Shown one piece after another: positions 33,471-61,774 of a stretch of DNA of 64,000 nucleotides. The notes beneath the pieces were generated by a model, which worked only from the letters and a program-made list of their open reading frames with translations, was not told where the DNA came from and searched no databases. Position numbers and translations under genes: made by a program. Source of the DNA: Synechococcus sp. HK01-R (GTDB taxonomy: Bacteria; Cyanobacteriota; Cyanobacteriia; PCC-6307; Cyanobiaceae); contig NZ_CP059059.1 in assembly GCF_014217855.1 (NCBI RefSeq), positions 1,674,001-1,738,000 of the forward strand, read 5' to 3'. Numbering within the stretch: the stretch's first letter is position 1; each line of letters opens with the position of its first letter.

Positions 33471-33544
33471 CGGGGTATAGCGCAGTTTGGTAGCGCGCCT
33501 GCTTTGGGAGCAGGATGCCGGGGGTTCAAATCCCTCTACCCCGA
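33471..33544 (+). tRNA. tRNA-Pro (UGG), integration target
   Basis: A complete 74-nt cloverleaf: acceptor CGGGGTA/TACCCCG, D-arm GCGC...GCGC, anticodon stem CCTGC/GCAGG with loop TTTGGGA (anticodon TGG), T-arm with TTCAAAT, and discriminator A. Its last 45 nt (33500-33544) recur exactly at 61886-61930. The gene is intact on this side of the element, as usual when integrases use a tRNA 3' end. Confidence 0.97.
33500..33544 (+). repeat. left attachment site (attL core)
   Basis: These 45 bases cover tRNA-Pro from the anticodon stem to the discriminator base and match 61886-61930 base for base. The sequence differs immediately on both sides, so this is the full core repeat. The interval between the two copies is 28,386 bp (one repeat included) and carries an integrase at its distal end. 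Confidence 0.95.
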
Positions 33545-33620
33545 CTCCATCAAAAGCCAGTCAGTGACTTGTTTCTCGGCCGCCTCTCCCAGGGCAGTTT
33601 TTTATTGCCTTGCCGCTAGT

Positions 33621-33671: not shown

Positions 33672-33965
33672 TCAATCAGCCGAATCTTGCCGATAGACAT
33701 CGCAAATCACATCCCATTTCTGGGCCTCGCTAGCGGATAGAGGCACCCGAACCGGTGGCTCGCCATGACTAGGAGGCGGCAGAACGATCACGGCAGCGAT
33801 CGGATCAGCCGTGCCGCACGATCCCTGAAACAAGACCCGAAGCTCAGCTTCCTCATCCAGGTCTGTGTGCAGTGGTCGCATCACCAGGCAGCTGCTGTGC
33901 GCATTCAGCAGGTCGACATCACGGCAGCCAATCGCCATGAGGATGTCTTTGATCTCAGGGTGCAT
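33672..33965 (-). CDS. small hypothetical protein in HTH pair
   Basis: 97 residues from ATG 33965, overlapping the upstream HTH gene by 11 bp, so translation is probably coupled. The product starts MHPEIKDILMAIGCRDVDLLNAHSS and has an acidic middle (HTDLDEEAELRVLF) and a Pro-rich loop. No family was recognised. Being the gene closest to the left end and coupled to an HTH protein, it may take part in regulating the element, but there is no direct evidence. Confidence 0.55.
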   Translation of the reverse strand: MHPEIKDILMAIGCRDVDLLNAHSSCLVMRPLHTDLDEEAELRVLFQGSCGTADPIAAVIVLPPPSHGEPPVRVPLSASEAQKWDVICDVYRQDSAD

Positions 33966-34323
33966 CTGATGCCACCTCCTGCAGGGCCATGTGGATGACA
34001 TTCGCCAGAGAAATCCATCGATCCGCTGGCCATGGCCCTGGACCCCATAGGTCGAAATCGATCCATGAGTTGCACAGCCTTGCAACCTCATCCCACTCAC
34101 TAACTGAAGCAACTTCAGGAGCCTTCGCTTGGGGGCGATCGATACGAGGTCGGGTGCTTCGAGCAAAACGAGCTTCGAGGCCATCTCGAAGGATCAGCCG
34201 TTTCGACCGGTCGTGATAGTGCAAACGAGGTGGACTGCCATTTAATGCGGCATAGATTGCACTCTTTGATCGACCTAAGATTGCGGCCGCCTCAGCTACA
34301 GTGATCAGCTTTTTGTTTTGCAT
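33955..34323 (-). CDS. MerR/excisionase-like helix-turn-helix protein
   Basis: 122 residues from ATG 34323. Residues 5-50 read KKLITVAEAAAILGRSKSAIYAALNG, then HYHDRSKRLILRDGLEA: a winged helix-turn-helix of the excisionase/DNA-binding family type. The C-terminal 65 residues (VSEWDEVARLCNSWIDFDLWGPGPWPADRW) are not recognised. It may control excision or repress genes of the element. Its upstream region is AT-rich, unlike its surroundings, and contains two ATTG...CAAT inverted pairs (34347-34358 and 34389-34403) that could be operators. Confidence 0.68.
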   Translation of the reverse strand: MQNKKLITVAEAAAILGRSKSAIYAALNGSPPRLHYHDRSKRLILRDGLEARFARSTRPRIDRPQAKAPEVASVSEWDEVARLCNSWIDFDLWGPGPWPADRWISLANVIHMALQEVASDAP

Positions 34324-34721
34324 CCTAGCTAGACTCAATGCGGGAGATTGTTAGCAATATGCGCATTATTACTGCTATTTATTTGGGTATTGCTTAGGAC
34401 AATGGAGGGGTCCGAATTTACCCGCCTGAATTTTAGAAAGAAGGACCCGTTTTTGGTTTTGAGCAGTTCCGTCATCAAGGCTTGCATTAAGGCAAAACGG
34501 GCAAAGGGCGCAACTGCTGTTCCCTAAATCCAGTAGCGGGCGCTGCCCCGGCGCTGGTGCTGATCTCTGATGGCAAGAGGCACCCCGGCTCAAGTCCGAT
34601 GAAGACCTGCAGTTGCTGATTCGCTGCCCTTGGGACCAGAAGGCGGAGCGGTTGGAGATCGCTCTCGGCCGTAGCGATCGGTTACTCGGCGGTCTTGAGT
34701 TCGCGAATGATCTGCTCAGTC
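34324..34721. other. intergenic region between DISARM end and HTH gene
   Basis: No convincing gene. The first 80 bases are AT-rich and probably hold the promoter of the minus-strand HTH gene, including the ATTG...CAAT inverted pairs. The rest is GC-rich with only a 72-codon minus-strand frame (CALCPFC motif, otherwise low complexity), which I do not support as a gene. No hairpin with a T-run was found after drmC. Confidence 0.5.
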
Positions 34722-35507
34722 TCAGACCTGGAGGAACAACCCTTCCGCAACCATCTGGCGGAAGTGCTTGGCCACCTGATCAGCGCGCCACGGTTCTCGA
34801 ACGAGCCAACCGGCTTCAAAGTTGTGGCGCTGCGCCGTTTCGCTGAAGTTGGCACTGGTGACAAGAGCGCTTGAACGCACCGTGTCGGCATCTGCGACCA
34901 CAACCTTGGCGTGCTGGTAGCAGCGCTCAGCAGCCCCTGAGGAAAGCCTTTGATCGACGTAAACCAGTGGCTTGGCCGGCCAGGGCCACACCTCCTTGTC
35001 GAACCAATTCCGAATCATGCCCAGCGGATCCGAGCCCAGTCGATCGGCGATCTGAATCGGATGAAAGAACAACTCCACCCGCTGAAGCTGGCCGCTCACT
35101 AACCGGTCCGCGATTGACTCCAAAAGCTCCTGAAACTGATTGGAGAGACCGATGTTGTATGTCGCGATCAAGAGGCTCGTCTGTGCCTGTTGAATCAGCT
35201 GATCCACGGTGGCGAAAGTGTCAGCTGTCTTGGCATGGGCTGGCTCAGGTCCCGACCACACAAAGCTCCAGGCATCGCGCTCCCGCTGTAAGGCCTCTCG
35301 TTGATCGGCTATGTGCTCAAGCACCATTGCCATCAATTGCGGAGACCCGCCCTCGCGCACGAGGTCATGCAGGAAGGTCTCTAGCTGGCCGCGGCCATCG
35401 GCATTGAGCCCTGCCAGAACGCCCTGCCAGCTGGTCGGCACGTAACTGAGCTGCCTCAACTTGGCGGCTACTCCTCGCAAGGTTTGCCCTGGGAGGGTGA
35501 TTGGCAT
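34722..35507 (-). CDS. drmC: DISARM protein DrmC (phospholipase-D-like)
   Basis: 261 residues. The C-terminal half is a single PLD/HKD domain: LLIATYNIGLSNQFQELLESIAD, then QHAKVVVADADTVRSSALVTSANFSETAQRHNFEAGWLV (HxK with downstream Asp and Asn at about residue 200). DrmC is the PLD-like component of DISARM, reported as less essential than DrmA and DrmB. The start base is also the last base of drmB, so translation is coupled. It is the last gene of the five-gene operon. Confidence 0.88.
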   Translation of the reverse strand: MPITLPGQTLRGVAAKLRQLSYVPTSWQGVLAGLNADGRGQLETFLHDLVREGGSPQLMAMVLEHIADQREALQRERDAWSFVWSGPEPAHAKTADTFATVDQLIQQAQTSLLIATYNIGLSNQFQELLESIADRLVSGQLQRVELFFHPIQIADRLGSDPLGMIRNWFDKEVWPWPAKPLVYVDQRLSSGAAERCYQHAKVVVADADTVRSSALVTSANFSETAQRHNFEAGWLVREPWRADQVAKHFRQMVAEGLFLQV

Positions 35508-37417
35508 CAGTGGGCCTCAGGGTTGATGAAGCTCCAGAAGCTCGGGTCATCGACGTCATCAACCACCGAAACGGTCCGGCTGACGAGGGCTCGGTCGAGA
35601 AACTCGTTGCGTTGCTCACAGGAGGTTTCAGCGATCAGCTCACAGCCATGACACGCGGCGCCATGGGTTGGGCGGATGTCGAATTCGTGGTTGGGATCAT
35701 GCTCAGAGCAGAAGGGGTCGTTGCTGCAAAGCTGACCTCGCTCGAAGGCCCGTTCCAGATAGGGAACAATCCGCTTGCCCGCATCAACGAGCCCCCCGAG
35801 CGTGCCTTCAGATCCAGATGAGCTGGTGAGCAAGAGAATGCCGTAACCGATCTCAGAGTTGGCGTAGATCCGTTCTCGGATTGAACTTGAGCCATAGCCG
35901 CACTCCAAGGCCATCTCGGTGATCAGCAGATGGCTGAGGCTGTGGAGAAGGATGTATGGCGCTCCTGGGAACGGGAATTGTTCGGTGTCGAGCCCTCGGG
36001 ACTTGAGCCATTCATTTTCGAAGGCCTTGCTGAACTGAGCAGCGCGGCTCATCACCGCATCACTGGACGCCCACGCCTTGATGGTGGCGGGATCGAACTC
36101 GATGAAGATCCCCTCCCCCTTGTTCTCTGAAGCGGGGAGCCAGCGCAAATCATTCGCTAGAGGAGCACGCGCGTTGCTCTTGCTGGTGTCGATCGGGAGA
36201 CCACCGAGGCTGCTCGTGCGAGCCGTGAAACGGGTGAAACCCACCAAGGCCTGGACTTCTCGCAGGCGCCTGACGAGCAGAACGCGTTTGATCGCCTTCT
36301 GGAACCACTGTGGTGAATGGTCCGGCGTCCAGATCGCAGCATCAAAGGGGCTGTCCTCTGTTGACCTGGAGACCCCTTCCATCGGGCCCACCAGAAGCCG
36401 CAGTTCCTCATCCTTCGGTTGAGGGACCTCGCCTGTTGGGCCTCCCCGCTGCGCCTCAATCGCTTGCCACAAGGCTGCAGGCTCGACTCCTTCAAAGACA
36501 CTCTTCAACCTTGGGTTGAACTTCAGAGCCATTGGAATCTCTGCTTCTGACTCGATCGCCTCAAGCTCGTCTTTCAGTTCAGTGACTCGCTTGGCCAACC
36601 CGCCAGCCTCTTCTGGCAGGGAAATCACCGAGATCGTCTCGCTGAAGTAAGCGTTCGTTGCTGAGCGAACCAAGAGCCGACTTGGGGTGGGTTTGCCATC
36701 CGTCAGGCACTTCTCGTCATCACGGCTGAAGCGACCCAACCAAGGGGTGTGGCCCTTGCATTCACCCAGCGGGTTCATCTCCTGGATCAAGGCGTCAGCC
36801 AACTTGCGGGTTACACCGCTCTCCGACTGCACAAAGATCTGAGTGAAGTCGTTGCCGGTGCCTGCTTCCAGCAGATAAAGGCGTTCGGTGTTCTTGCAGC
36901 CGAACTGACGGAAGCAGAAGTCGCGCCAGCGAATATCGCTGAGGTGGCCATGGGGGCAGGCCATCACAAAACGCACAGGCACCAGGGGGTGTTCGCCGTC
37001 TTGGTCCTGGAACTTCTTCCAATCCTTGATGCAACCGTCGTTGTAGTGCACCAACAGACGGGCCCTGCAGTTCACTCCGAAGGCCTGGCGATCAGGGATC
37101 TTTTTCTGCACCACAGACCATTCCGGGAAGCGAAATGCCTTGATCGAGCCACTGATGTTTTTGAGCGGATCCACCTCTTTTGGTGGCGTGCGCAGTTCCA
37201 CACGCGCAGCCCCGGTGGCCTGTTGTGCCAGGCGCAGCAGCCTTGGTTCGTGGACCGGATCACAGCCGCGATCGTTCCACAAATCGAGGCCGCCGATTAG
37301 CACCGCGTAGTCGGGGAGATCGACCATGGCCCCAGGGCCATACATCTGCAGCACTTGGCTCTGGCGGGCCTCCCCTAAGGGAGGTGGAGCTTGTTTTCGG
37401 CGGTTGCTAGCGGGCAT
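35507..37417 (-). CDS. drmB: DISARM protein DrmB (DUF1998)
   Basis: 636 residues. The N-terminus has the MYGPGAMVDLPDYAVLIGGLDLW signature of DUF1998/DrmB proteins. Two Cys-rich zones are visible, one in the middle (VMACPHGHLSDIRWRDFCFRQFGC, about residue 150) and one at the C-terminus (LCSNDPFCSEHD and ACHGCELIAETSC, about 560-590), likely zinc sites. DrmB pairs with the DrmA helicase; the DrmAB complex binds DNA and recognises 5'-overhang or unmodified ends in the published system. It follows drmA by 8 bp. Length matches typical DrmB (about 600-650). Confidence 0.92.
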   Translation of the reverse strand: MPASNRRKQAPPPLGEARQSQVLQMYGPGAMVDLPDYAVLIGGLDLWNDRGCDPVHEPRLLRLAQQATGAARVELRTPPKEVDPLKNISGSIKAFRFPEWSVVQKKIPDRQAFGVNCRARLLVHYNDGCIKDWKKFQDQDGEHPLVPVRFVMACPHGHLSDIRWRDFCFRQFGCKNTERLYLLEAGTGNDFTQIFVQSESGVTRKLADALIQEMNPLGECKGHTPWLGRFSRDDEKCLTDGKPTPSRLLVRSATNAYFSETISVISLPEEAGGLAKRVTELKDELEAIESEAEIPMALKFNPRLKSVFEGVEPAALWQAIEAQRGGPTGEVPQPKDEELRLLVGPMEGVSRSTEDSPFDAAIWTPDHSPQWFQKAIKRVLLVRRLREVQALVGFTRFTARTSSLGGLPIDTSKSNARAPLANDLRWLPASENKGEGIFIEFDPATIKAWASSDAVMSRAAQFSKAFENEWLKSRGLDTEQFPFPGAPYILLHSLSHLLITEMALECGYGSSSIRERIYANSEIGYGILLLTSSSGSEGTLGGLVDAGKRIVPYLERAFERGQLCSNDPFCSEHDPNHEFDIRPTHGAACHGCELIAETSCEQRNEFLDRALVSRTVSVVDDVDDPSFWSFINPEAH

Positions 37418-37425
37418 CGTTCAGC

Positions 37426-40400
37426 TCACTCGTCGTCTGCGGTGATCTCCTCGCGGTAGTTCACCAAGCGAATCGGCACGGTGGGCTCCACATCGCGAAG
37501 GCTCCAATTGGTGGCGAACTGCTTGTAGCCATCACTGGCATAAAGAACATCCGTATCGAGTGGGGTGTGCAGCAGCCCGGCTCCTGATCCCTTCTCTTCG
37601 TGGGTCCAGTACTGGAGCTTGGCTTCCGGTTGTTGGGTGAGCTTCCACCAGGCCTCCATTAGGTCCATCACCTGCTGACGCACTTCTGTCGGCAGCAGCT
37701 GGCTTTGATCAGCATCGGCGGCGCCAGTTGCTATGCAGCGGTTCTGCAAGACCTCAGCAATATCCCCTTTGATCCGTTGCAAGGCGTCGGCCGACATGGC
37801 TCCCGAGGGGGGGGCGAGCTGAGCTTCGCTGTGCCGCGCCATCGCCACCACCACGCCGGGGAGCCCCCGATCGATGGCACGGCTGGCAAAAGGTGTGCAG
37901 CTCGTCGCCTCGACGTGCCGGTAGAAGGTTTGGTGCCAGTAGGGGAACAGCTCAAAGTGGGAGCGATCCCGAGGGCGGTTGGGGTTCAACAGCACCAATA
38001 CCAGCCCTGGTTTGTTGGCATCAGGATTGCCGCTGAGCTGCCGACCCACACGACTGGTGGCCTGGATGTATTCAGCAGCCGTCTTGGGCTGGTTGAGCAC
38101 CACCATCAAGCCCAACCGAGCGATGTCCAGGCCCACCGAGATCATGTTCGTGGCCAAGGCCACATCCAGCTTTTGCTTGTCGACGTAGGGCTTGGACAGG
38201 CGGTCCTTCGTTTCGCTGATCTTGGCGGTGTTCACCCGTGAGGTGAGTTCCTCGGGCATCTCGGGTCGCCGCCGCCTGGCGAAGGGGTTCTCAACTCCCT
38301 CAATGGCGCGGTTGTTCGCGAACTCTTCGAGCTGAGCGCCGAGTTCGTCTTCCAGGATGCTGCGGGTGACCCCCAGTTCCTTGAGGTTGGAGAAGTACCC
38401 AAGCAAGGTCATGTAGGGATCCGCTGGGTTTTTCTCGCCCATGGCCTTGTTGTCATCCCAAGCTTTCTGCGCTGCTGCCATCAAGCCGAGATAGCTGCGC
38501 AGCAGAACACCCTTGAGGTTGCGGCCTGCAGCTGAGAGCCCCACATAGAGCCGCGCCTGGTTGGGATCCTCGACAGTCCGCGAGAAGAAGTTGTCGTCCC
38601 GTTCAGGGCCTGGAGGTGGGAACACCCGCGCTTGGGAGCGGCCGAACAGGGCCCGAATCTGCGCCTCTGCCCGGCGCACGGTTGCGGTAGAAGCGACGAT
38701 CTTGGGTGGTGGCGATTCAGGCGTTGGTCGCATCAACCGCTCGATCACCGTCTCGTAAAGACCGGCGAGGGTTCCCAAGGGGCCACTAATCAGATGCAGT
38801 TCGTCCTGGATCACCAGCTCTGGTGGCAAGAGCCGGCCATGGGGAATCTTCAGGCCTGCCGCCTTTTCAGCAGGGCCCCAAAAGCCCGCGACACCTGCAC
38901 CCGTTGGCAGCTGGTAGTGACTGACATTGCCGAAGAGGGATGAGGTCTTCCCAACCCAGGGCAGAGCCGCGAACTTGTCGATCGTGGAGATCAAGAAGCA
39001 GGGCAGCCGGCGATAGATCTGTTCATCCACCGCCAGCACCGGAAGAGGTGTGGCGCGGTTGAACGGGCAAGGGCCCATGTGGGCGTGCTCCTGCTTGGCC
39101 TCGGGAAGCCGAGGTTCGCGGCAATAGATCTCCAATCGATCGGGCTTGTTCTTAGGCATGAGATGGAAGCCTTCATGCGTGAGAGGCCGGTTGCACCAGG
39201 GGCAGGTCTCGATTGGAATCGGCCGGTCACGTTTGCCCGCTTTCCACTTGTTGAGCAGCGCGTGGGTCGAGTTCTGATCGCTATCGCCTGATCCACCGAG
39301 CTTGTTGGGTGTGGCGGCCTTGCCTACCCACATGCCGATCTCGAAAGGCCACTCTCCAAGCAAGTAGCCATCACCAGACTTTGCGCGTTCCTGGCGCTCC
39401 AGTTCCAAGGCGCAGATCAAGGTGGCTGCTCGGCCGAGCTGATCCAGCGTGAGCAGGCGCAAGGTGTAGCGCATTAACACCGTGACGCCGGCCGACTCGA
39501 TGCCGGGATGAGCCAGTCGGCGATACACCAAGGTGAACGCCGCCAAGCCCAGATAGGCCTCGGTCTTGCCCCCCCCCGTGGGGAAGAAGAGCAGTTCAAC
39601 GGTCTCTCGGTCGATCCTTCCTTGCTTTGTGAGGGGCTGGGCTAAGCCCGGCAAATTCATCAGCACGAAGGCCAGCTGGAAGAATCGCCAACCGGGTGTG
39701 CGGGTTCCGTTGGCAATGCCGATCTGATCTGGGGCGACCTTGGCTGTGAAAGCTGAGCGCTGCCGCTGGGCTTTTGCCATCACCACATTCATGGTGCGGA
39801 AGGCTTCCCGGTCGACCGGATCACTCAGCAACTGGATGCCGTTTTCGATGCGCTTGGCACAGTCTTCAGCTTGCGCTCGGAGCTGCTTGGCCGTGTCGTT
39901 CTGGTCTTTGTCGCTGACTGGATATTTGGGTTGTTGGCTGATCCAACCGCGATAGGCCTTCACCATCGGCAGCAGCCGATCGATCACCTGCTCGCTTTGC
40001 GCGAGATCGGCGAGGGCTTCCATCCCCATCGGCACACTGCGAGCTTCTGCTGGTGGTTCAGGCAGAACCCGCATCACCTCAGCGGTGGGCAACCAGGTGC
40101 TGGTGAGCGTGAAGGCGCGATCAGGTCGCTCCACAGCAATCCCATCGGCGTTCACCGCCACGTTGTGACCGCTCGCAAAGCAGAAATCACGCCGGTACTG
40201 GAGGGCAGCTAAGGCTTCGTCGTTGTCTTGGTTGGAGGCGTTTTGCAGGGCATCCCGACGAGGCGGAAAGCCTTCTGGGCAATGCACACTCAGCTCAGCC
40301 TGAAAAGCCGTGTGCGGATCGCGATGGCGGATCTGATTGCTCTCAGGCGGCTTGCGCTTGTTGAGCAGGAACAACGACACCGACAGTTGGTCGCTGGGGT

Positions 40401-40965
40401 AACCGAGCTTCTTGGGCGCTGGCCGGGCAATCCAGCGCAGACAGAGCCCTTCTGGGTTGCCTTCTAAGGGGATGTCCTTGCTGGTGCCTGACTCCACGAT
40501 GGTGATGCTCTGCTCTTTCTTCTGAGGAGAGCGCAGCCAGAGCTTGGGCTCGTCGCCATCAGCAGGAGGTTCGTAGTCCCCCCAAGTGACGGTGGCCTCG
40601 AGGGTGGATCCCCGCTCGAGGATGAAGCTCATCCCCAGCGATGAAGGGAACCAGGAACGTCGTTTGTTCCCCTGATCGAGAGAGTCGTTGGCGTCTTCGT
40701 CGCGTTCTTTCTTCTCCAGCCGGTTGGCGGCGTCGTTGCTTTCGTCTTCGCCAGCCAGATCGGCGTAACTCGCCTGGCCTTCATCTCCAGTGCGATCTGC
40801 TTCCTGTTGGAAGACATGGGGAACCAGGAAGCCGGTTGTGTACCAAACCGATGGCGGTTGGTTGAGCTGCTCATGGCGGCGATTCCTGTCGTCCCAACCC
40901 GGGCCGATCAGATCACCGCGCAGTGCAGCGACGAGTTGCTGACGGATCTCGGCCGACGTCGCCAT
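37426..40965 (-). CDS. drmA: DISARM helicase DrmA
   Basis: 1179 residues. A long N-terminal region precedes the helicase core. Walker A is FPTGGGKTEAYLGL (about residue 460), the DEXH box is VIQDELHLISGPLG (about 720), motif III-like ASTATVRRAEAQ follows, and motif VI is QATSRVGRQL (about 970). The DELH box and split of the core are typical of the DrmA subfamily of SF2 helicases. A possible zinc knuckle (CPWCNRPLTHEGFHLMPK) lies between the motor motifs. It needs DrmB to act against incoming DNA. It lies 39 bp downstream of drmMI and reads directly into drmB. Confidence 0.93.
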   Translation of the reverse strand: MATSAEIRQQLVAALRGDLIGPGWDDRNRRHEQLNQPPSVWYTTGFLVPHVFQQEADRTGDEGQASYADLAGEDESNDAANRLEKKERDEDANDSLDQGNKRRSWFPSSLGMSFILERGSTLEATVTWGDYEPPADGDEPKLWLRSPQKKEQSITIVESGTSKDIPLEGNPEGLCLRWIARPAPKKLGYPSDQLSVSLFLLNKRKPPESNQIRHRDPHTAFQAELSVHCPEGFPPRRDALQNASNQDNDEALAALQYRRDFCFASGHNVAVNADGIAVERPDRAFTLTSTWLPTAEVMRVLPEPPAEARSVPMGMEALADLAQSEQVIDRLLPMVKAYRGWISQQPKYPVSDKDQNDTAKQLRAQAEDCAKRIENGIQLLSDPVDREAFRTMNVVMAKAQRQRSAFTAKVAPDQIGIANGTRTPGWRFFQLAFVLMNLPGLAQPLTKQGRIDRETVELLFFPTGGGKTEAYLGLAAFTLVYRRLAHPGIESAGVTVLMRYTLRLLTLDQLGRAATLICALELERQERAKSGDGYLLGEWPFEIGMWVGKAATPNKLGGSGDSDQNSTHALLNKWKAGKRDRPIPIETCPWCNRPLTHEGFHLMPKNKPDRLEIYCREPRLPEAKQEHAHMGPCPFNRATPLPVLAVDEQIYRRLPCFLISTIDKFAALPWVGKTSSLFGNVSHYQLPTGAGVAGFWGPAEKAAGLKIPHGRLLPPELVIQDELHLISGPLGTLAGLYETVIERLMRPTPESPPPKIVASTATVRRAEAQIRALFGRSQARVFPPPGPERDDNFFSRTVEDPNQARLYVGLSAAGRNLKGVLLRSYLGLMAAAQKAWDDNKAMGEKNPADPYMTLLGYFSNLKELGVTRSILEDELGAQLEEFANNRAIEGVENPFARRRRPEMPEELTSRVNTAKISETKDRLSKPYVDKQKLDVALATNMISVGLDIARLGLMVVLNQPKTAAEYIQATSRVGRQLSGNPDANKPGLVLVLLNPNRPRDRSHFELFPYWHQTFYRHVEATSCTPFASRAIDRGLPGVVVAMARHSEAQLAPPSGAMSADALQRIKGDIAEVLQNRCIATGAADADQSQLLPTEVRQQVMDLMEAWWKLTQQPEAKLQYWTHEEKGSGAGLLHTPLDTDVLYASDGYKQFATNWSLRDVEPTVPIRLVNYREEITADDE

Positions 40966-41004
40966 GCGTTTACACCTCGGCTCCCTTGATAGCGATGGAG
41001 TGGG

Positions 41005-44000
41005 TCATAGGCCTAACCCCATCTGCTCTAAAGATTCAGAGGCTCCTGTCTTGGCGGGCCTGCCGCGCTTCTTCCCTGATGCTGTTGCAGCTGATTTCTT
41101 GCCCTTGCTGTGCAAGCCCTGGGCGACTTCTTCGGCGTAGCGCTCAGCGTTGAGGGCTAGAAGGCGGGCAAGGACATCATCACGAACGTCATCAGGCCAG
41201 CGGTAGCGCCAAGGCAGTTTCTTCTTGCCTTTGATGGCTTCATATGAACGCAACTGTGATTCGAAGTTAATGGCCTCATCGGCATCCCAGAAGAACGACT
41301 CACCGCTATCAATGCGCTCCTGTAGAGCATCAGGGAGCTTGGCATCATCTTCGGTGTCGAGGTAGTCAAGACCAAAGCCGCAGGCGGTGGGCACATCACT
41401 CCAGCCATAGGCAGCTAGAACCACTCGGTCCATCTGGCCGTGGAGATTGCGTAGCTCCAGGTGGTCACTACTGGTTTCCCCTGGATCGTGGAAGCGGTTG
41501 TAGGTGCTTGTGAGCCCTTCGTTGTTGCTGACCATCAATTCGGCGCGGTACTGGTGGTAGCGGTCGCCGATGGAATCGAGGCTCTGGCGTAAGGCGACGT
41601 GGGCGGGGTTGTTGGCTGTGGAATCGCAGAGAGCAGCGGGGAAGGGGAAGGTTTCGAAACAATCAGTGGGGGTGTAGCGAAGGTCGTCCTTCATTGACGA
41701 TCCGAAAAACCTTGCCCAGAGTTCATGTGTTGTTGACTGCAGGATGCCAAGGTCTTGGTAATCGTGCAGCGAGAACACGACCAAAGCATCAGAGAAAACT
41801 TGATCAGATCCCATGAATGCAAGTTGCCAGTTTGGTTGATGCCGCGCAGTTGCTATTACTCTTGAATGACCTGCAATGGCTGCATCGAGTGCAGGTGTTG
41901 AGCGACCAAACTTCCACCAGTTCTGCTTACGTCTTCTTCCGTCAGCATTGTCCTTGAGCTGGTCACGCTCAGGTTTGACCTTTCGCTCAACGATCGCCAT
42001 TAATTCAGGCCATTCCTGTGTGCATTCCGCAGCGCTCCGCTCGCCGAAGTTGATCACATATCTGTGATGGGTATGAGTGGGGCTGCTGTTGACCTCTTCG
42101 CCGCCAATGTACGGGTAGATCACCTCTGCGTTCTTCGGAACCTTGGCAATCAGCCTCTTCATCGTCGCGATCGGAGATGGGATCCCTAGGCTTTCGTCGT
42201 CGGCTGATCCGGAATCATCGAAAGTGAAGCCCATGCCGTACACCATGGTGCCCTTAAAGCTTTTGCTGGCATTAGCCGTCAGCTGCTTGGGATCGTCGTG
42301 GCCTCCATTGGCAAATAAAAACGCCGTGATCTGCTGCACCCGTCGATTCTCCAGCAGCTTTACGCCGGTGTAGACGCCCTTCAATAGGTGCACCATGCTC
42401 ACCACTACGGCCGCCACTCCTGGCCACTTAAAGCGCTTGCGCGCTGCATAGATCGAGCCACCGTTCAAGCAAATCCAGCGCAGCCCACTGCTGCGCGTGT
42501 CGCCCTGGGCAATGGTGTTGGTTGCAATCAGCCCTAACGTGCCACCGGGCCGTAAAAAGTAGAAGCAGCGACGGAAGAAATGGGCCACCAGATCGCAATT
42601 CCCACCGCTTTCAGGATGGAGCTGCTTGAACCAGTCAAGGATGGTTCCTGGGTATGTTTGAACAAAGGTGTTATTCCCAGCGAATGGCGGGTTGCCCACG
42701 AACACATCGAAGCCAGCATCCGGTCGGTTGAAAACATCCGGGAAGGCAAGCTGCCAGTGCAGGGGTTGAAGCCCTTTCTCGCCTTCTCGTAGCCGTTCAA
42801 GTGGCTCTCGGAGTGAATCCTCAAGAGCTTCAGCCGTGCTGTTCTGAAGAGTTTCTTCTAGATAGATCTGCTTCAGCTGTTCGCGATCCTTGGGCTTCTT
42901 GCCATTGAAGAAAGCAGCTACTAATAGATCGCCAACCGTGTGCAGGTAAGCCGTGCTGGTGTTCCACTGTTCAAGCGCTTTTCGCTTCTGTTTATCGTCA
43001 GCATCACTGCGGCTGTCGGCATGGAAGAGAGCAAAGCTCTTAGCCTCCTGTTGCTTCACTTGCTCGATGTAATTGATCTGAAGTTCACGCTGAAGACTGG
43101 CGCCCTTCAGTGCTGCCTCGATCTCGCTGCGCTCCATCCCCACTAAGGAATCGCCGCACTTGAGGGCGTGATCCACGAAGGTGAATGGTGCGTCTTTGCT
43201 CAGGCTCACCAGCCAGAGGCTGAGACGAGCCAGATTCACCGCAAAGGGGTTTTTATCCACGCCATAGAGACAGCTCTGAGCAATCAAGCGGCGGGCATAA
43301 ATCAGTGGTTCTTCGCCAAGGGCATGGCCACCCGGCTTGAGTGCATCGGGCAGGCCTTCACGGGTCCAGGCCTGCTCCAAAAGTTCAGCGAGATAGCGGC
43401 AGCTCTCTACCAGAAAAGCCCCTGATCCCATTGCTGGATCGCAGATCTTCAGATCAAGGATCTGGGCTGCTGTGGGCTTGTGGTCACAACGCTCCATCCA
43501 GGGGCGTAACGCCTCTTCCACGATCGGCCGAGTGAGTGATCGCGGTGTGTAGTGACTACCGCTGCGGCGCCGTTCTTCGGTGGGTTGGAACACCAGGCTC
43601 CCTGCTGCCTGCGGACCATCGAAAAGGTCTCGATTGATGCGCGGTGCTAAGGCTTCAACCAACTCATCTTCTGAGTCGGCAACCTTGAGAGCGGTTGCAG
43701 CTTTGGTCGGCAGGGTTGTGCCTGCTTGATCGTCCAGCCATTTCGTGCGTTTCGCGCCGGGCATTTCCAGCAGCACATCGAGATCAACGGCTGTGGTGAT
43801 CTGCTTCTTGGCCCCTTGCGGTTTGCTCTTCAATCCAATGCAACGGCCTGGTATGCGCTGAACCGCGTAGCCCATGATTCCTTCATAGACCGAGCCGATC
43901 TGCTCCACATCCAGGGCCCGGTAGCTGATCCGCTCGCCCTGCACGATCAACAGGTTGCGCAGCACCGCCAGCACCACCCCATCGCTGATCCATGGCGACT

Positions 44001-45168
44001 CCAGCCAGGGGTAGACATCGGGATCAAACAGCTGCCCGTGGCGAGCCGGCAAGTAGTCGACTGTTGGTCCGCCGCCGTCGAACACCAAGCGACAGAGGCT
44101 CATCAGCCCAGCCCAAGCACCGAAGCGCTGCTCCATCGTGTCGGGGTATTCGCTTTCGTCTTGCTGCAGTTGCTCGAAGATCGCGCTCAGCTTGTAGTTC
44201 TGCTCGTACACCGCATCGCTGGGCATCAGCGCTTCGTCTTCGGCGTAGAGCAGGAACACCAGCCGCATCAGCATGGTGATCAAGCCGCCATAGAGCTGTT
44301 GGGGATCCCGCTCGGGTAGATCTCCCAGCAGTGGGTTGTCTTGCTGTTGGCTTAGCTCATCGGCCTGCTGAAAGCCCCGCAGCAGATCCCACAACGCGGC
44401 CAACACCTGATCAGCCAGGGCATTGCTGACCACGGCCTGGAAGCTGCGGCTCTTCTTGAGCACGTCGCTCAGCCGGTAGCCATCGGGATCCAGGAACACA
44501 TGGCTCTGGCCCAGGAGCAGATCGAGGCCCGAGAGCATCAACCGGCCGCTGACCTCCGCCAATTCGCTCAGCCGGAAGGTGAGATGGCCCGAGCTTTCAC
44601 CCTTGGGGGCCACCACCAACCTCAGTTGGCTGCCGTTGAACAACAAACCTGCTTCAACACCTGTTTCTCGCAGCAAGCGCTCCAACCGTTCTTGCGCTGA
44701 CGCGCGCCAGAGATGGTCGGCGTCACTGCTCTTCTGATCGAACGGAGCAGCGAGCGGGAGTTCCACCACCAGCAGCTGGGCTCCCTCGCCGTTAGCAGCA
44801 GGGACCACTGCAGTCGGCGTCAGGGTGTCGCCCAGTTCCGGCAGCTCTTTGGAGTGAGCCTGGATGGCCTCGGGGCTCCGATCGAATTGATCGTCATCCC
44901 AGCCCAGGTGCTCGGTGAGCAGATCCAGCAGGGATCGAAAGCCTTGCTCTGTATCGCTGTCGTCTAGCTCGCCTATGTAATCCAGTGGCTCAAGCGCAGC
45001 CCGGTAACGCGCTTGCCGCTCGATCAACTCACTACCGCTGCGGGTCACCACCCAGCCGGCCTCTTGCATGGCTGCCGGTGCCACCACCAAGCCAACGGGC
45101 TGCAGGTAGCCGAGCCACTCCTGATGCGCCTTGAGCTCAGGATCCATCGCGGGAGAACGTCGTGCCAT
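41005..45168 (-). CDS. drmMI: DISARM class 1 adenine-N6 methyltransferase DrmMI
   Basis: 1387 residues. The methyltransferase core has motif I KICDPAMGSGAFLVES (about 577) and the catalytic FVGNPPFAGNNTF (NPPF, about 826), diagnostic of N6-adenine methylation in the Eco57I/PglX-like order. It is flanked by long N- and C-terminal regions probably reading DNA specificity. Its basic tail (KGKKSAATASGKKRGRPAKTG) contains an AT-hook-like GRP core. In DISARM the methylase marks host DNA as self. Only 2 bp separate it from the drmD stop. No restriction nuclease domain is evident in the protein itself. Confidence 0.92.
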   Translation of the reverse strand: MARRSPAMDPELKAHQEWLGYLQPVGLVVAPAAMQEAGWVVTRSGSELIERQARYRAALEPLDYIGELDDSDTEQGFRSLLDLLTEHLGWDDDQFDRSPEAIQAHSKELPELGDTLTPTAVVPAANGEGAQLLVVELPLAAPFDQKSSDADHLWRASAQERLERLLRETGVEAGLLFNGSQLRLVVAPKGESSGHLTFRLSELAEVSGRLMLSGLDLLLGQSHVFLDPDGYRLSDVLKKSRSFQAVVSNALADQVLAALWDLLRGFQQADELSQQQDNPLLGDLPERDPQQLYGGLITMLMRLVFLLYAEDEALMPSDAVYEQNYKLSAIFEQLQQDESEYPDTMEQRFGAWAGLMSLCRLVFDGGGPTVDYLPARHGQLFDPDVYPWLESPWISDGVVLAVLRNLLIVQGERISYRALDVEQIGSVYEGIMGYAVQRIPGRCIGLKSKPQGAKKQITTAVDLDVLLEMPGAKRTKWLDDQAGTTLPTKAATALKVADSEDELVEALAPRINRDLFDGPQAAGSLVFQPTEERRRSGSHYTPRSLTRPIVEEALRPWMERCDHKPTAAQILDLKICDPAMGSGAFLVESCRYLAELLEQAWTREGLPDALKPGGHALGEEPLIYARRLIAQSCLYGVDKNPFAVNLARLSLWLVSLSKDAPFTFVDHALKCGDSLVGMERSEIEAALKGASLQRELQINYIEQVKQQEAKSFALFHADSRSDADDKQKRKALEQWNTSTAYLHTVGDLLVAAFFNGKKPKDREQLKQIYLEETLQNSTAEALEDSLREPLERLREGEKGLQPLHWQLAFPDVFNRPDAGFDVFVGNPPFAGNNTFVQTYPGTILDWFKQLHPESGGNCDLVAHFFRRCFYFLRPGGTLGLIATNTIAQGDTRSSGLRWICLNGGSIYAARKRFKWPGVAAVVVSMVHLLKGVYTGVKLLENRRVQQITAFLFANGGHDDPKQLTANASKSFKGTMVYGMGFTFDDSGSADDESLGIPSPIATMKRLIAKVPKNAEVIYPYIGGEEVNSSPTHTHHRYVINFGERSAAECTQEWPELMAIVERKVKPERDQLKDNADGRRRKQNWWKFGRSTPALDAAIAGHSRVIATARHQPNWQLAFMGSDQVFSDALVVFSLHDYQDLGILQSTTHELWARFFGSSMKDDLRYTPTDCFETFPFPAALCDSTANNPAHVALRQSLDSIGDRYHQYRAELMVSNNEGLTSTYNRFHDPGETSSDHLELRNLHGQMDRVVLAAYGWSDVPTACGFGLDYLDTEDDAKLPDALQERIDSGESFFWDADEAINFESQLRSYEAIKGKKKLPWRYRWPDDVRDDVLARLLALNAERYAEEVAQGLHSKGKKSAATASGKKRGRPAKTGASESLEQMGLGL

Positions 45169-45170
45169 GG

Positions 45171-48100
45171 CTATCCGCTGATCGGCCAGAGGTACACAAG
45201 CCCGGCCGGCTCCAACCGGTGGGTCACCACCCGGTAGCTGTCGACGATCCGCTGCGGCTCACTGCCGAGCTCAGCTTCGATCGTTTCCAGCCTGCGCTCC
45301 CAGTGCCGTTGATCAGATCGCAATTGGGCGTGCTCTTTCTTGGACAACTTGGAGAGGTCGAGCGCTGGCACATCCACCTGATCAGCAAGGCCAGGAATCA
45401 GACCCGTTGGCTCGGCATCAGCCGCCTTTTTCTCCAGCTTCCCAAGCTCCCTGGTGCGTTGGCGCAGGGTTGCATTGATGCGCTTGCGCTGGCCGCGGAG
45501 CACATCCTTGAGGGCCTGAGCTTCCGTGCCGCCCCGCTGCTTCAGCAGCTCTGCCGCGGCTACCAATGCGGTCTCCGACTCCTGCTTCAGCAAGGGCAAC
45601 AGAGCCTGCACGTCGTGTTCGGCCATGGCCTGGAAGCGTCCGGTGTCGACATTGGGGAGACCACCGCTCTCCGCCTCCTTCAAGGCATCTTGAAGCAGTT
45701 TCCACGTGGCCTCTTTCGTGGCTGCTGGCAGTGGCTGCAGCGCGCTCTGCCGGGCATCGCCTGGATGCCAATCGGCCACCACCGTGATCAGCTCGTCATG
45801 CAACCGGGCAGCACCCTGACCGAACAACGACAGGCGCCCAAGCACCACAACCTTGGGCTGGGGATCACGGCTGGGCAGGACGCAGGCCCGGCTCAGTTCG
45901 TGGTGCAGAAAGCCTTGGCTGAGGAAACGGCTGAGGAGGCGTTGGGCCAGGCGGTGCTCGAGATGCAGATGCACCGACTCAGCACTCAGCCGCCCGGGGT
46001 CGGAGAAGATCACAGGGCGTACTGGATTCTCCCGGCGCCATTCATCGAGATAGGCCTTGGCAGGTTTCACACCCCGCAGGCTGTCGAGGGTGTTCTCCCA
46101 GCTCTTGTCACGCGTCTTGGCAGGCAATTCCTCTGGATTGGTTAGGCGCCAGCAGGTTTGACCGCGCTCGTCGGTGTGTTGCTCCAGCCCCGAAACACCC
46201 AGCAGATCCAGGGAGCAGTTGAGGGCCTGACGGAAGCGGTCGTGGGCAAAGGCAAGCCACTGTTTCGACTTCGACAGCAGCTGCCGGAGAGCATCCTGTT
46301 GCTGCTCGAGTTCCGCCACACGCCGGCTGGCTTCCAGCTCTTCTCGAGCTTTGGTGAGCAGCACGCCGCGTTCGGTGGTGGCTGAATCCATTCCCTCGAG
46401 TTGGCCCTCCAACTCGTCGAGGTTGTCCAGGTCGATCCCAGCCTCGAACGCCTCATCCACTTGGCGCTGCACCAGTGGAGAGAGGGATCCCAACTCCTGT
46501 CGGATCACTTCCGTCTTTTTGACCAACACGTCCATCACCCGATCTTCTGGGCGGTCTTCCAGCAGGAAGTAGTGGCACCACACCTGCGGGGCCTGCTGCA
46601 GCTTGCGGTCGATACGCCCGTTGCGCTGCTCCAACTTGCTGGGATTCCAGGGGATGTCGAAGTGGATTAAGTGCTTGCAGTGGTTCTGCAGGTTCACCCC
46701 CTCTCGGGCAGCGTCGGTAGCGATCAGGATCCGCAACGGCTCTTGATCAGGGTCGGCGTTGAACTGAGCCTTCAGTCGTTCGCGGTTCTCCTCGCTCATC
46801 CCTCCGCTGAAGCTGGCCACTCTTTGCTGGGCTTCTCGCTCCCCAAGTAGTGCCCCCAACTGCCGTTCCAGGTAGCGCTTGGTGTCGACGTAGTCCGTGA
46901 AGATCAACAGCCGGGTGGGATTCCACTGCAGGTCATTCGTGCCAAGCCCTGAGCAGAGGTGCTGTTCCATCCATTCCTGCAGCATCTCGATGCGTGGATC
47001 TGGCCTGCCTCTCTGGGCAGCGGCGATTGAAGCCATCTGCTCCAGCAGTTGCTGATCGCTTTGATCTGCCGCGATGGTCTGGCGCAGGGCAGCCCGGGTC
47101 TGAGCTTCCTCCAGATTCAGCACCTCGTCATCGTTGAGTTCCGCGAGATCGCTGTCGGCATCAACGCCGCCTTGAAGTAGCTCAAGCTGGGCATCCCGTT
47201 TCTGATGTTGCTTCTCGGCCAAGGTGCGTTGGTGCACCGCCAAGGTGCGCGCGAAGGCTTCGATCGAGCTGAGCAGACGCTTCTGCAGGTTGGTGATCAC
47301 CAGTCGGTCGGCGTTTAGCTGGCGCTTGGTGGCCCCTTCAGCCAGCAGCCTGCGCTCCCTTTGTTTTCGGTACTGCTGAAGCAACCGGGAGAGTGCCAGC
47401 TCTGGGGTGTCAGCTGAAAGCGACCCCTTGGGCTTCTTTAAGGGCTCAACGATCCGCTCTGGGAACTCTTCGCCAATGCGGCGTAGGTCGTCTTTCAGGC
47501 GGCGGACGAGGACTGAATCCAGATCCCCCTGTGCGAACGGCACCCCACGGGTGAAGCGCGCTGGATCCAACAACTCCAACAACGCTGTGAAGCTGTTGCT
47601 GTGGCCGTTGTGGGGCGTCGCACTCAGGAAGATCCGGTGCTCGAAGCGTGGTGCCAGATCCCGGAGGCTGCGCGTCAAGCCTGAATCAATGGCGTAGCGG
47701 AGGCTGTTGCTGGCAGGGGCCGCATTGTGGGCTTCATCCAGGATCAGCAGGCTCTGCAGAGGGGCCTGGTCTTCTCCTCCTCGGCCTTGCTCGAGCCAAT
47801 CAATCAGCGGTGCGGCGTAGTCGCTGTTGCGCAGGAGCGCATGGGAGATCAGGAAGCGGTTCCCTGTGCTCCAAGGGTTGGTGCCATAACCACGCTCCTG
47901 GCGCACCTTGGCCACATAGGCCCGGTCCATCACGGTGAAGGCCAAGCCAAAGCGGCTCGCCATTTCTTCTTGCCACTGACGCAGCACCGAAGGAGGGCAG
48001 CTGATCACTACCCGCCGGATCCGTTGCCGCAGCAGCATCTCCCGCAGGATCAGACCCGCCTCAATCGTCTTGCCCAGGCCCACGTCATCAGCGATGAACA

Positions 48101-48503
48101 GCCCCACGCGAGGCATCTGCAGCGCCTTGCGGAGCGGTTCAAGTTGATAGGCCTTCACATCGATCCCAGCCCGATAGGGGGCCTGGAAGAGCTCAGCATC
48201 GGTAGCCGTAACGCAGTTCCAGCGGAGGGTGTTGAGGTACGCCGAAAACTGCTTGGGCTGATCGAAGCCTCTCTGGGCCACTACCTCCCAGCTGCTCTCA
48301 CCCAGTACCTCGAAATCGATCTCGCGCTCAAGGAACACCGTGAGCCGCTGGCCGATCGCCTGGTCTTCCATGCAGGCCATCGCCACCACCGTGTCGGCAC
48401 CGGCCTCAACAGGCGGCTGCACCTCTTCAACGAGGTAGCGGCGGGTGCGGCAACGGACGACCGAGCCGGGCTTGAGTTTGGATCTAGGCGAAGCGACAGG
48501 CAT
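45171..48503 (-). CDS. drmD: DISARM class 1 SNF2-like helicase DrmD
   Basis: 1110 residues, SNF2/SF2 type. Walker A is FIADDVGLGKTIEAGLILRE (about 139), the DEAH box LLILDEAHNAAP (about 254), motif III FLSATPHNGHS, and the C-lobe carries LLIFTDYVDTKRYLERQL and ATDAAREGVNLQN with EQRNGRIDR (about 600-640). Long coiled-coil-like stretches follow (670-780 and 1000-1080). DrmD defines class 1 DISARM together with DrmMI. It is the first gene of the operon, so the promoter must lie in 48504-49051. Confidence 0.93.
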   Translation of the reverse strand: MPVASPRSKLKPGSVVRCRTRRYLVEEVQPPVEAGADTVVAMACMEDQAIGQRLTVFLEREIDFEVLGESSWEVVAQRGFDQPKQFSAYLNTLRWNCVTATDAELFQAPYRAGIDVKAYQLEPLRKALQMPRVGLFIADDVGLGKTIEAGLILREMLLRQRIRRVVISCPPSVLRQWQEEMASRFGLAFTVMDRAYVAKVRQERGYGTNPWSTGNRFLISHALLRNSDYAAPLIDWLEQGRGGEDQAPLQSLLILDEAHNAAPASNSLRYAIDSGLTRSLRDLAPRFEHRIFLSATPHNGHSNSFTALLELLDPARFTRGVPFAQGDLDSVLVRRLKDDLRRIGEEFPERIVEPLKKPKGSLSADTPELALSRLLQQYRKQRERRLLAEGATKRQLNADRLVITNLQKRLLSSIEAFARTLAVHQRTLAEKQHQKRDAQLELLQGGVDADSDLAELNDDEVLNLEEAQTRAALRQTIAADQSDQQLLEQMASIAAAQRGRPDPRIEMLQEWMEQHLCSGLGTNDLQWNPTRLLIFTDYVDTKRYLERQLGALLGEREAQQRVASFSGGMSEENRERLKAQFNADPDQEPLRILIATDAAREGVNLQNHCKHLIHFDIPWNPSKLEQRNGRIDRKLQQAPQVWCHYFLLEDRPEDRVMDVLVKKTEVIRQELGSLSPLVQRQVDEAFEAGIDLDNLDELEGQLEGMDSATTERGVLLTKAREELEASRRVAELEQQQDALRQLLSKSKQWLAFAHDRFRQALNCSLDLLGVSGLEQHTDERGQTCWRLTNPEELPAKTRDKSWENTLDSLRGVKPAKAYLDEWRRENPVRPVIFSDPGRLSAESVHLHLEHRLAQRLLSRFLSQGFLHHELSRACVLPSRDPQPKVVVLGRLSLFGQGAARLHDELITVVADWHPGDARQSALQPLPAATKEATWKLLQDALKEAESGGLPNVDTGRFQAMAEHDVQALLPLLKQESETALVAAAELLKQRGGTEAQALKDVLRGQRKRINATLRQRTRELGKLEKKAADAEPTGLIPGLADQVDVPALDLSKLSKKEHAQLRSDQRHWERRLETIEAELGSEPQRIVDSYRVVTHRLEPAGLVYLWPISG

Positions 48504-49051
48504 CAGACCGGACTGTGACCTCGAGCTGCATCAGGCTCCACTTCAAGATGCCAGTGGTTATGGGGAGTTGTCTTCCCTCAGTTGAGGGATGACGCAATCT
48601 CTGCATCAAATCGAGAGATCTTCGAGCAGCCCTGCCACGCCAAGAGCCGTCGCCTCAATGTTCATGGCACCCTCCAAGGCTTTGCAGGCCGCGGCCATCA
48701 CAGAAGGAAGCTCTCGCCCTTGAAGGACGGCGCCGGCTTCAAGGGGATGCCTCACGCTCCATCGTCAATCAATCCCTAAAACCCCTTGAACCCAGTCAAT
48801 CAATACCCCTAGAAGCTTGGATCAGTGCTTCCAACGACCTCTTTAAACCCGGCGCCACCGACGGGATTTCAACCAGCATCCATCAATAAAAACTCTTTCG
48901 CCGGAAGTAAACAGCAAGCCCCAGCGCAGCAGCAAACAAGGCAAGGAAAGACATATCTCGACTCTCTTGAATCTTTAGATGGCGCAGACTCCTCGACCTG
49001 AATCCGTTATTCGCACGAGAAGAAGCTTCGACTTCACAAGTCGCTGGCATC
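48504..49051. other. intergenic region between DISARM and nuclease gene
   Basis: A divergent control region for the DISARM operon (minus) and the PD-(D/E)XK gene (plus). I see no recognisable promoter consensus. The only gene-like object is a 23-codon minus-strand frame listed separately. A plus-strand 65-codon frame has no family features and is not supported. Confidence 0.5.
48883..48954 (-). CDS. possible 23-residue hydrophobic peptide
   Basis: ATG at 48954 and TGA at 48883-48885 enclose a peptide that starts MSFLALFAAALGLAVYF and ends with a basic RRKSFY tail: one membrane helix with a positive end. A GAGAG sequence 7-11 bases before the ATG could serve for ribosome binding. The layout resembles small type I toxin or single-helix membrane peptides, but a chance frame cannot be excluded. 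Confidence 0.3.
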   Translation of the reverse strand: MSFLALFAAALGLAVYFRRKSFY

Positions 49052-49741
49052 TTGACCTCGCCCTCGACAACAGAAAAGATGGAGGCCCAAGCACTAAACC
49101 TGAAACAACGCCTAGAGCGCTATTGCCATGTCACTTGGCTCGCCCCATACCTGGCAGGAGAAAGGCATTGCCTGTTCAATCTCTACCTTCATGTCAATTA
49201 CTGCACCCCCCAATCTTCAGGAATACCTGGTGATTGGGTGACTAAGCATGAGCGCTTACTTCAATCAGTAGCTCGAACCCACTCAGAGAAGGGGCGGGTC
49301 GTACACATTGAGCAGGAGAACACCATGCGCCTACGTAGCAAGAATGGCGTCACCATCCATGGCCAGTGCGATGTGGTGGTCAGCGAAACAAATTCAATGC
49401 CAGGGATTATCTCGGATGCAAAAACAGGTCGCCCACGCGGCAAAGATCGCGCCCAAGTCCTCACATATATGGCCTTGGCTCCATATGCCACTGCACTAGA
49501 AGGTGTTCAACATCCACCCTGCGGTGAATTGGTGTATGCGAATGGAGATCGAGTTGAAATCCCTGCACTCGAGGCCGGGGTGGCATTCCAGCAACAGTTG
49601 TCAGATTTATTGAGCCTCACAGCTGGGCCACAACCTGAGCCATCCCCATCTACTAACGAGTGCCGCTTCTGCCGCCTTGCCGAAATCTGCCCTCACCGCA
49701 TAAGCGAAGAACCAATTCAAGAAACGGTTTCTTGGCTCTGA
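49052..49741 (+). CDS. Cas4-like PD-(D/E)XK nuclease family protein
   Basis: 229 residues. The catalytic core reads IHGQCDVVVSE, then IISDAKTGRPRGKDRAQVLTYMALAP, giving the D...D-A-K plus downstream Q-x-x-x-Y order of RecB/Cas4-type nucleases. The C-terminus has a Cys cluster (ECRFCRLAEICPHR) and the N-terminus another Cys (LERYCHVTWLAPY), the arrangement that holds a [4Fe-4S] cluster in Cas4 and AddB-like proteins. No CRISPR array or cas genes are in the window. It is probably an exonuclease used in element recombination or defence. Divergent from DISARM. The start could also be a few codons downstream. Confidence 0.72.
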   Translation: MTSPSTTEKMEAQALNLKQRLERYCHVTWLAPYLAGERHCLFNLYLHVNYCTPQSSGIPGDWVTKHERLLQSVARTHSEKGRVVHIEQENTMRLRSKNGVTIHGQCDVVVSETNSMPGIISDAKTGRPRGKDRAQVLTYMALAPYATALEGVQHPPCGELVYANGDRVEIPALEAGVAFQQQLSDLLSLTAGPQPEPSPSTNECRFCRLAEICPHRISEEPIQETVSWL

Positions 49742-49848: not shown

Positions 49849-50361
49849 ATGTCCCGTGAACGTGACCCCTATCGGCTTCCCCGCGCTGGCTGGGAGATCG
49901 CGCCTACGGCCGGCTTGGCCTCCATCGATCTGAACGGCAACCATGGCGCGCTGACCGGCGGTGAATTCATCGGCGAAAGCACCGTTGGCGGGATGGTCGT
50001 GTTCGCCATCTACCAAGCCCTGCTCACGGGCCTCCGCACCGAAGCCATGCGCAAGCGTGGCGAGATCGATCGGAGCACCCAGGTTCAAGCGATTGTGGCG
50101 AGCGTGTGGGAAACCACCAAGCAGGGGGCTGCCGTGAGTGCAGTGCTCAGCGTGGTGCTTTTCGTCTTCCCCTGGTTGGGGTTTCCGCTCAGCCTGATCG
50201 GCATGGTTGGCCTTGGTAAAGCCTCGATCGACCTCGTGCACGCCTTCTGGGATGGGCTCAGCGAAGAACAGCGCTCGGATCTTCACCGCGCCGCCTTTGA
50301 TGCGGGGGTCAGCCTGAGTCAGCTGCTTGGTGGGGCAGCCCCTGCCAGCCAATCGGCATGA
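49849..50361 (+). CDS. membrane protein of unknown function, first of a pair
   Basis: 170 residues. After a soluble N-terminus (LASIDLNGNHGALTGGEFIGESTVGG) come one hydrophobic helix (GMVVFAIYQALLTGL), a charged segment of about 25 residues, and a long hydrophobic region (AAVSAVLSVVLFVFPWLGFPLSLIGMVGLGKA) that can form two helices. The ATG at 49849 follows no clear ribosome site. It overlaps the next gene by 4 bp (ATGA). The pattern of helix - charged loop - double helix is repeated in that neighbour. Function unknown. Confidence 0.62.
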   Translation: MSRERDPYRLPRAGWEIAPTAGLASIDLNGNHGALTGGEFIGESTVGGMVVFAIYQALLTGLRTEAMRKRGEIDRSTQVQAIVASVWETTKQGAAVSAVLSVVLFVFPWLGFPLSLIGMVGLGKASIDLVHAFWDGLSEEQRSDLHRAAFDAGVSLSQLLGGAAPASQSA

Positions 50362-60414: not shown

Positions 60415-60530
60415 TTTTGATAGGTAGATGAAGAACAACCGACACACATCTGAGCGCGTCGTACTCAAACTCTACACGATCTGTCAGGGGTAGGCAATCG
60501 AAATAAGGATCTAATTTCGTCTGCGTTTAT

Positions 60531-61769: not shown

Positions 61770-61774
61770 TGAAC

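Follow-up and report, generated by a model that had tools for sequence, protein, structure and literature searches.

A class 1 DISARM operon in Synechococcus sp. HK01-R

We have analyzed a stretch of 64,000 nucleotides from Synechococcus sp. HK01-R (NZ_CP059059.1, positions 1,674,001 to 1,738,000, referred to below as the window), in which five contiguous genes make up a defence island system associated with restriction-modification (DISARM). Class 1 DISARM is formed by drmD, drmMI, drmA, drmB and drmC, an arrangement of which Ofir and colleagues reportedly gave an account in 2018. The same five genes appear in the window in the same order and orientation (Table 1). All five reading frames are open and located on the minus strand according to the open reading frame (ORF) calls, and the spacings derived from the coordinates are -1, 8, 39 and 2 bp going from drmC to drmD. 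An earlier note on this DNA had described five minus-strand genes spaced by 0 to 39 bp and had recognized their set and order as class 1 DISARM. Genes, strand, order and assignment were borne out; the spacing has to be corrected at one point, as drmC and drmB overlap by 1 bp.

Family placement relied on a profile search of the five families, proposed in the earlier note as a check that could refute the assignment, using NCBIfam models with cut-offs at the equivalog or subfamily level. DrmD (NF038317, 1019 bits for a cut-off of 610), the short form of DrmA (NF038325, 1151 for 950), DrmB (NF038324, 542 for 240, with Pfam MZB also matched) and DrmC (NF038319, 179 for 133) all scored above these values. 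No NCBIfam model exceeded its cut-off for DrmMI; this protein was placed by PADLOC, whose model PDLC02643 gave 1263 bits along residues 11-1367, nearly the whole protein, and which assigns all five proteins to DISARM families. Such scores leave no room for chance. The motifs found are given in Table 1. DrmA also matched, over residues 89-1091, the solved DrmA chain 7s9v (E 2.4e-155), which belongs to the Serratia DISARM DrmAB (7s9v/7s9w, PMC9142583); unlike the Serratia protein, it falls under the cut-off of the long-form model NF038326. DrmMI shares the methylase and target-recognition domains (TRD) of MmeI and other type IIG enzymes, with a match to the MmeI structure 5hr4 at residues 823-928, and differs from them in being a member of a DISARM operon. 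Models for PglX, of the bacteriophage exclusion (BREX) systems, stayed far under their cut-offs.

If this operon works as DISARM is known to do, DrmMI would mark the sites of the host with N6-methyladenine, the helicase complex of DrmA and DrmB would load on unmodified DNA that enters the cell with ends that are single-stranded or have a 5' overhang, and DrmD together with the DrmC nuclease would assist in its destruction. DNA marking and phage restriction, like the integrase activity of the element described below, are predicted functions of these genes. In kind the operon is ordinary. It departs from other class 1 DISARM systems in its tRNA-integrated island, in a mosaic recognition region of DrmMI and in a compact drmMI-drmA junction, which is filled in most of the relatives measured. 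What makes it notable is the clean evidence of gain and loss and the mosaic methylase.

The carrier island and its relatives

The operon lies between two exact 45-bp copies of the 3' part of tRNA-Pro(TGG), and the tRNA gene is complete after the insertion. The earlier note had proposed a tRNA-targeted element, and the att repeats, the integrase, the excisionase-like gene and the 19-bp repeats inside both ends agree with that proposal. Our analysis indicates, with a probability of about 0.9, that the complete class 1 DISARM operon is the cargo of an integrative island of 28.4 kb, inserted into tRNA-Pro(TGG) through site-specific recombination at a 45-bp core. Its integrase is probably a tyrosine recombinase, and the 19-bp end repeats might be candidate integrase arm sites. 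An Rfam scan of positions 31000-63000 gave nothing beyond two tRNAs. The tRNA border, the integrase gene and the variable cargo are common to this island and to tRNA-targeted integrative islands of marine bacteria, among them tycheposons, which have been described as elements that carry cargo, span 4-200 kb and have a tRNA at the border and a tyrosine recombinase (PMC10872708); in the window the cargo is defence.

The joined flanks were searched within the genus (31 genomes, counting that of the window), and the tRNA-Pro region was inspected in ten others. In G193 the tRNA-Pro abuts the right-flank gene (78% identical), which gives an empty site for the right flank only, the left flank being unmatched at tRNA-Pro. 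Three genomes (G123, G075 and G295) have other islands at this tRNA, with a second partial tRNA copy 12-17 kb off (16-17 bp exact) and integrases 30-33% identical to that of the window, and in G295 there is also a relative of the DUF3987 protein (32%). A second tRNA copy of 20 bp was located about 8 kb off in G260, with no integrase kin, and a single copy was found within the stretch inspected in G169, G156, G181, G034 and G239, together with an integrase fragment in G156. The marks of a tRNA-integrated island found at this site are tRNA-derived att repeats, an integrase and an empty site (G193, right flank).

Among 300 genomes of the family, DrmA scored over its cut-off in 29; matches at E 0.001 or better reached 97, many of them weak (E ~1e-4) and affecting the helicase domain alone. 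We analyzed 19 of the 29 loci, mostly the top-scoring ones, and a set of 20 named loci with DrmA kin came from Synechococcus, Cyanobium, Aphanothece, Aphanocapsa, Microcystis elabens and uncultured cyanobacteria. Two genomes of a single genus different from the window's, G090 and G198, have the operon beside tRNA-Ala(GGC) with an integrase ~34% identical to that of the window, and the 3' end of the tRNA (48 bp in G090 and 47 bp in G198) recurs 23.7 and 30.2 kb away, respectively, past drmC. Counting the window, class 1 DISARM is thus the cargo of three islands at two tRNAs. The suggestion of the earlier note that tRNA islands could spread DISARM among picocyanobacteria gains from this second genus, and from a part of the island with DISARM deleted in a third (see below). 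The order drmD, DNA methyltransferase, drmA and DUF1998 gene is also annotated on plasmids of Nostoc, Trichormus, Paracoccus and Sphingomonas, with drmC annotated in the Nostoc and Trichormus loci and not in the other two. An incomplete DISARM was reported in an Antarctic Synechococcus-like population (PMC9716671), and DISARM genes of coastal Synechococcus were listed, not among the complete systems (PMC10696648).

Evidence of loss was found in G162, which belongs to the third genus and matches the window in three collinear blocks with 86-92% DNA identity. The blocks cover the AAA_33/WYL gene, the group orf228-orf170-PD-(D/E)XK plus the spacer that follows it, and the 3' portion of drmC. G162 has no drmD, drmMI, drmA, drmB or 5' portion of drmC, and its match to orf476 is only weak and partial, on the opposite strand. 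The 13-bp sequence GATGGCCGCGGCC is present once at the G162 junction (L129, 13118-13130) and twice, in exact copies, flanking the missing stretch in the window. DISARM appears to have been lost from the G162 island by a deletion through recombination between these repeats. In G064, a member of a fourth genus, tRNA-Pro(TGG) is accompanied by the genes for AAA_33/WYL, orf228 and orf170 and by a relative of the excisionase; the 55 kb inspected there contained no match to the drm genes or the integrase. The comparison indicates that islands of this type may both gain and lose DISARM. The complete system, the island ends, the islands at a second tRNA and a natural DISARM-deleted version are all available, and therefore gain and loss are directly testable. 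Defences carried by islands could help to explain the variation in cyanophage resistance within genera.

Exchange is suggested by G181, a genome of the window's genus, because DrmD, DrmA and DrmB are 95-98% identical to those of the window and DrmC 92%, against 78% for the right-flank protein and 88% for a GidA-family protein of the core. These values suggest a recent exchange. The distance from tRNA-Lys to tRNA-Pro is 2 kb in the window and ~296 kb in G181.

Several observations weigh against island carriage and exchange. The Pfam scan gave no family for the integrase, whose call comes from its phrog_1 match and synteny, and its match to solved structures is at chance level (E 0.32). The integrase of G075 has an internal stop, and that of G198 matches in two pieces in different frames, perhaps broken. 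Within the stretches inspected, integrase kin (E 1e-6) were not found at 17 of the 19 DISARM loci and a tRNA was not found at 13, and neither appeared in the 57 kb around the G162 copy. The core comparison with G181 comprises two proteins only, and its DISARM is not beside tRNA-Pro, having tRNA-Lys at ~29 kb and tRNA-Pro at ~252 kb. The situation in G181 suggests a rearrangement at a variable tRNA-Lys/tRNA-Pro region; its location is therefore no proof of a separate transfer of DISARM into that genome, an argument that we have dropped. Expression, methylation, defence and excision are predictions from the sequence.

Among the alternatives, the one that holds best, and still an improbable one, is that the island is a phage satellite, or else what remains of a prophage, and that it is transported in phage particles and uses DISARM in the competition between phages. 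The PHROGs matches among the ten island proteins scanned include integrase, excisionase, phage-type helicase, exonuclease, kinase-like and minor-tail-like proteins, and a survey of YprA-family systems places some of them on satellite phage-like elements (PMC12458937). However, capsid, portal and large terminase had no match among the same ten proteins, the sole match to a terminase small subunit is the excisionase-like HTH protein (weak, E 0.0032), and the tail-like protein retrieved no phage record by tblastn. We consider it very unlikely that this is a chromosomal defence cluster that is not truly mobile, happens to lie next to a tRNA and has repeats that are decayed or due to chance: although the DISARM-bearing form of the island was found in the window's own genome only, among the genomes searched, the att pair is exact along 45 bp with an integrase at the island end, G193 has tRNA-Pro abutting the right flank, congeners have other islands at the same tRNA, and the same design is repeated at tRNA-Ala in G090 and G198. 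Equally unlikely is an intact operon whose main role would be that of an orphan epigenetic module or of a selfish addiction module, an idea that the toxin-antitoxin genes nested in the operon of some relatives could favor; no HEPN/MNT pair matched in the window, and the five reading frames are all open and contain the motifs looked for. Finally, confusion with another YprA-family system (ARMADA, Druantia or Dpd-like) has a negligible probability: these share the YprA helicase, and ARMADA also the PglX-like methylase and BrxHII-like helicase of class 1 DISARM, but DrmA, DrmB and DrmC of the window are separate proteins above their DISARM cut-offs (equivalog for DrmA) instead of the fused helicase-DUF1998 protein without separate DrmB that distinguishes ARMADA and Druantia, and a consistent separation of helicase and DUF1998 parts is described for DISARM only, with sporadic exceptions elsewhere (PMC12458937).

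Table 1. Features of the DISARM operon and of its carrier island (positions in the window)
Feature	Position	Strand	Evidence or remarks
drmC, PLD nuclease-like	34722..35507	-	family profiles; motif HxK(x4)D at 199
drmB, DUF1998/MZB protein	35507..37417	-	family profiles; one CxxC (pattern search)
drmA, SF2 helicase	37426..40965	-	profiles, structure match; motifs GGGKT, DELH, SRVGR
drmMI-drmA junction, compact	40966..41004	-	39 bp
drmMI, MmeI-like N6-adenine methyltransferase	41005..45168	-	profiles, structure match; motifs DPAMGSG, NPPF
DrmMI target-recognition region	41599..41991	-	amino acids 1060-1190; hypervariable, history apparently unlike N-half
drmD, SNF2-like helicase	45171..48503	-	family profiles; motifs GLGKT, DEAH
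tRNA-Pro(TGG)	33471..33545	+	integration target, complete after insertion
attL	33500..33544	+	45-bp exact repeat, 3' part of tRNA-Pro
attR	61886..61930	+	second exact 45-bp copy
19-bp repeat GCGTGCAAAACGCGTGCAA	33621..33639	+	just inside left end
19-bp repeat GCGTGCAAAACGCGTGCAA	61775..61793	+	identical copy, just inside right end
13-bp direct repeat GATGGCCGCGGCC	35387..35399	-	within drmC; borders the segment absent from G162
13-bp direct repeat GATGGCCGCGGCC	48687..48699	-	second copy, upstream of drmD
HTH_17/excisionase-like protein	33955..34338	-	left end; weak, Pfam HTH_17 E 8.8e-5, under curated cut-off
PD-(D/E)XK exonuclease-like protein	49052..49741	+	divergent from drmD
orf170	49849..50361	+	no family found; 71-88% kin in G181, G162, G064
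orf228	50358..51044	+	no family found; 63-72% kin in G162, G064
orf476	51417..52847	-	no assigned function
AAA_33 kinase-like protein	52863..54995	-	WYL-like C-terminal part
Minor-tail-like protein	55226..55930	+	phrog_1924, E 1.8e-25
DUF3987/phage-type helicase	56795..59575	-	
Excisionase-like (DUF1233)	60184..60468	-	
Integrase	60531..61793	-	phrog_1, E 3.2e-7; adjoins attR

Mosaic methylase and variable junction

Judged from its sequence, DrmMI is a mosaic in which the recognition region has a history unlike that of the N-half. The window protein is 95% identical to that of G181 over residues 1-700, compared with 50% in the recognition region (1060-1190). Among 15 relatives, mean identity to the window drops to 0.31 at residues 1101-1150, in a set that excludes G008, G051 and G292, with genes broken or cut, and G298, which is without drmMI. 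The recognition region nearest to that of the window is found in G023 (62%); the N-halves of these two proteins share only 50% identity. This discordance was reproduced in trees built from 16 proteins under LG+G4 without a mixture model, since the N-half tree joins the window and G181 with 100/100 support and rejects the grouping of the window with G023, while the recognition-region tree rejects the window with G181 (approximately unbiased test, p = 0.00028). The latter tree assigns the window to no small group with good support, leaves several forks open and brings the long branches of G072 and G218 together. At the DNA level the identity between the window and G181 is still low at the 3' end of drmMI, with 78% in the final block, and is back to 91% just before drmA starts. 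From this pattern we infer that recognition specificity was swapped among relatives. In BREX, specificity has been shown to reside in the recognition domain of the methylase (PMC11842806). The mosaic poses the question of whether DISARM is tolerant of a new recognition domain with its effectors unchanged. If so, DrmAB must read the methylation state and not the motif, in line with the proposal made for DISARM in PMC9142583, where the DrmAB mechanism is described.

The junction that follows the recognition region is also variable. The drmMI-drmA gap measured 0.66-13.4 kb in 18 of 18 measurable loci of the G series (18 of the 19 analyzed, G298 having no drmMI in the stretch). Of the named loci 14 of 20 were measurable, ten of them taken as the same as G loci; L100, L114 and L118 are filled, and L101, from a metagenome-assembled genome of Aphanocapsa feldmannii, is compact with 42 bp. 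Altogether the junction is filled at 21 of the 23 loci measured, window counted, and compact in the window and L101, so that the latter refutes a compact junction unique to the window. At 18 of the 21 filled loci the gap matched at least one of eight gap-derived query proteins, kin of HEPN/MNT toxin-antitoxin, Fic, GmrSD and ATPase proteins; none of the eight matched in G023, G140 and G292. An MNT antitoxin with a HEPN toxin occupies 11 gaps (the HEPN of L114 in two pieces), the pair having been identified by Pfam in G217 (HepT-like, NTP_transf_2) and by tblastn in the others. G008 has MNT plus a HEPN fragment, and G099 a weak MNT-like stretch only. Fic genes are found in the gap at six loci (G090, G072, G198, G148, G217, L118) and between drmD and drmMI at five (G099, G108, G018, G155 and the broken G008 locus). 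GmrSD-type proteins appear at five, namely G198 and G142 (both run with Pfam), G217, G051 and L100. The Fic protein located between drmD and drmMI has 381 amino acids in the four intact loci, and the corresponding interval in the window is 2 bp. On plasmids of more distant hosts, tblastn gave a gap of 14-140 bp for Sphingomonas, Paracoccus and Nostoc, the methylase of the Nostoc plasmid being split by a transposase, and genes lie inside the gap on the Trichormus and Thiodictyon plasmids. No drmMI was found in the stretch inspected of a Synechococcus elongatus plasmid.

These data allow a tentative model, to which we give somewhat less than even odds, in which picocyanobacterial class 1 DISARM is modular at a single hot zone. 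This zone, beginning with the recognition half of drmMI and extending to where drmA starts, would be exchanged in one piece, changing the methylation motif and a nested guard module while the effectors stay fixed. HEPN/MNT toxin-antitoxin, Fic and GmrSD would be the guard modules and the window, if the model is true, a compact guard-free form. Joint exchange of the recognition half and the junction is seen in one pair only, the window and G181. In the open full-text literature searched, outside of which most subscription papers lie, we found no mention of the junction genes or of a mosaic DrmMI.

Other genes of the island

The AAA_33/WYL gene was considered as a dedicated regulator of DISARM and rejected. 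Homologues lie upstream of drmD in G140, G218, G023 and G217; the link is loose because matches at E 1e-20 or better appear in 83 of the 300 family genomes, some to the kinase part only, and because G064 has the gene with no drm match. Of the ten island proteins scanned, the minor-tail-like one is the sole structural phage protein, and a single-sequence AlphaFold model of it was discarded (pLDDT 33.8). The DUF3987 protein has weak phage kin only, in 3 records and over less than 33% of the query. The overlapping pair formed by orf170 and orf228 shows hydrophobic stretches by eye and also accompanies the AAA_33/WYL gene in G162 and G064, and kin of orf170 are also near drmD in G181.

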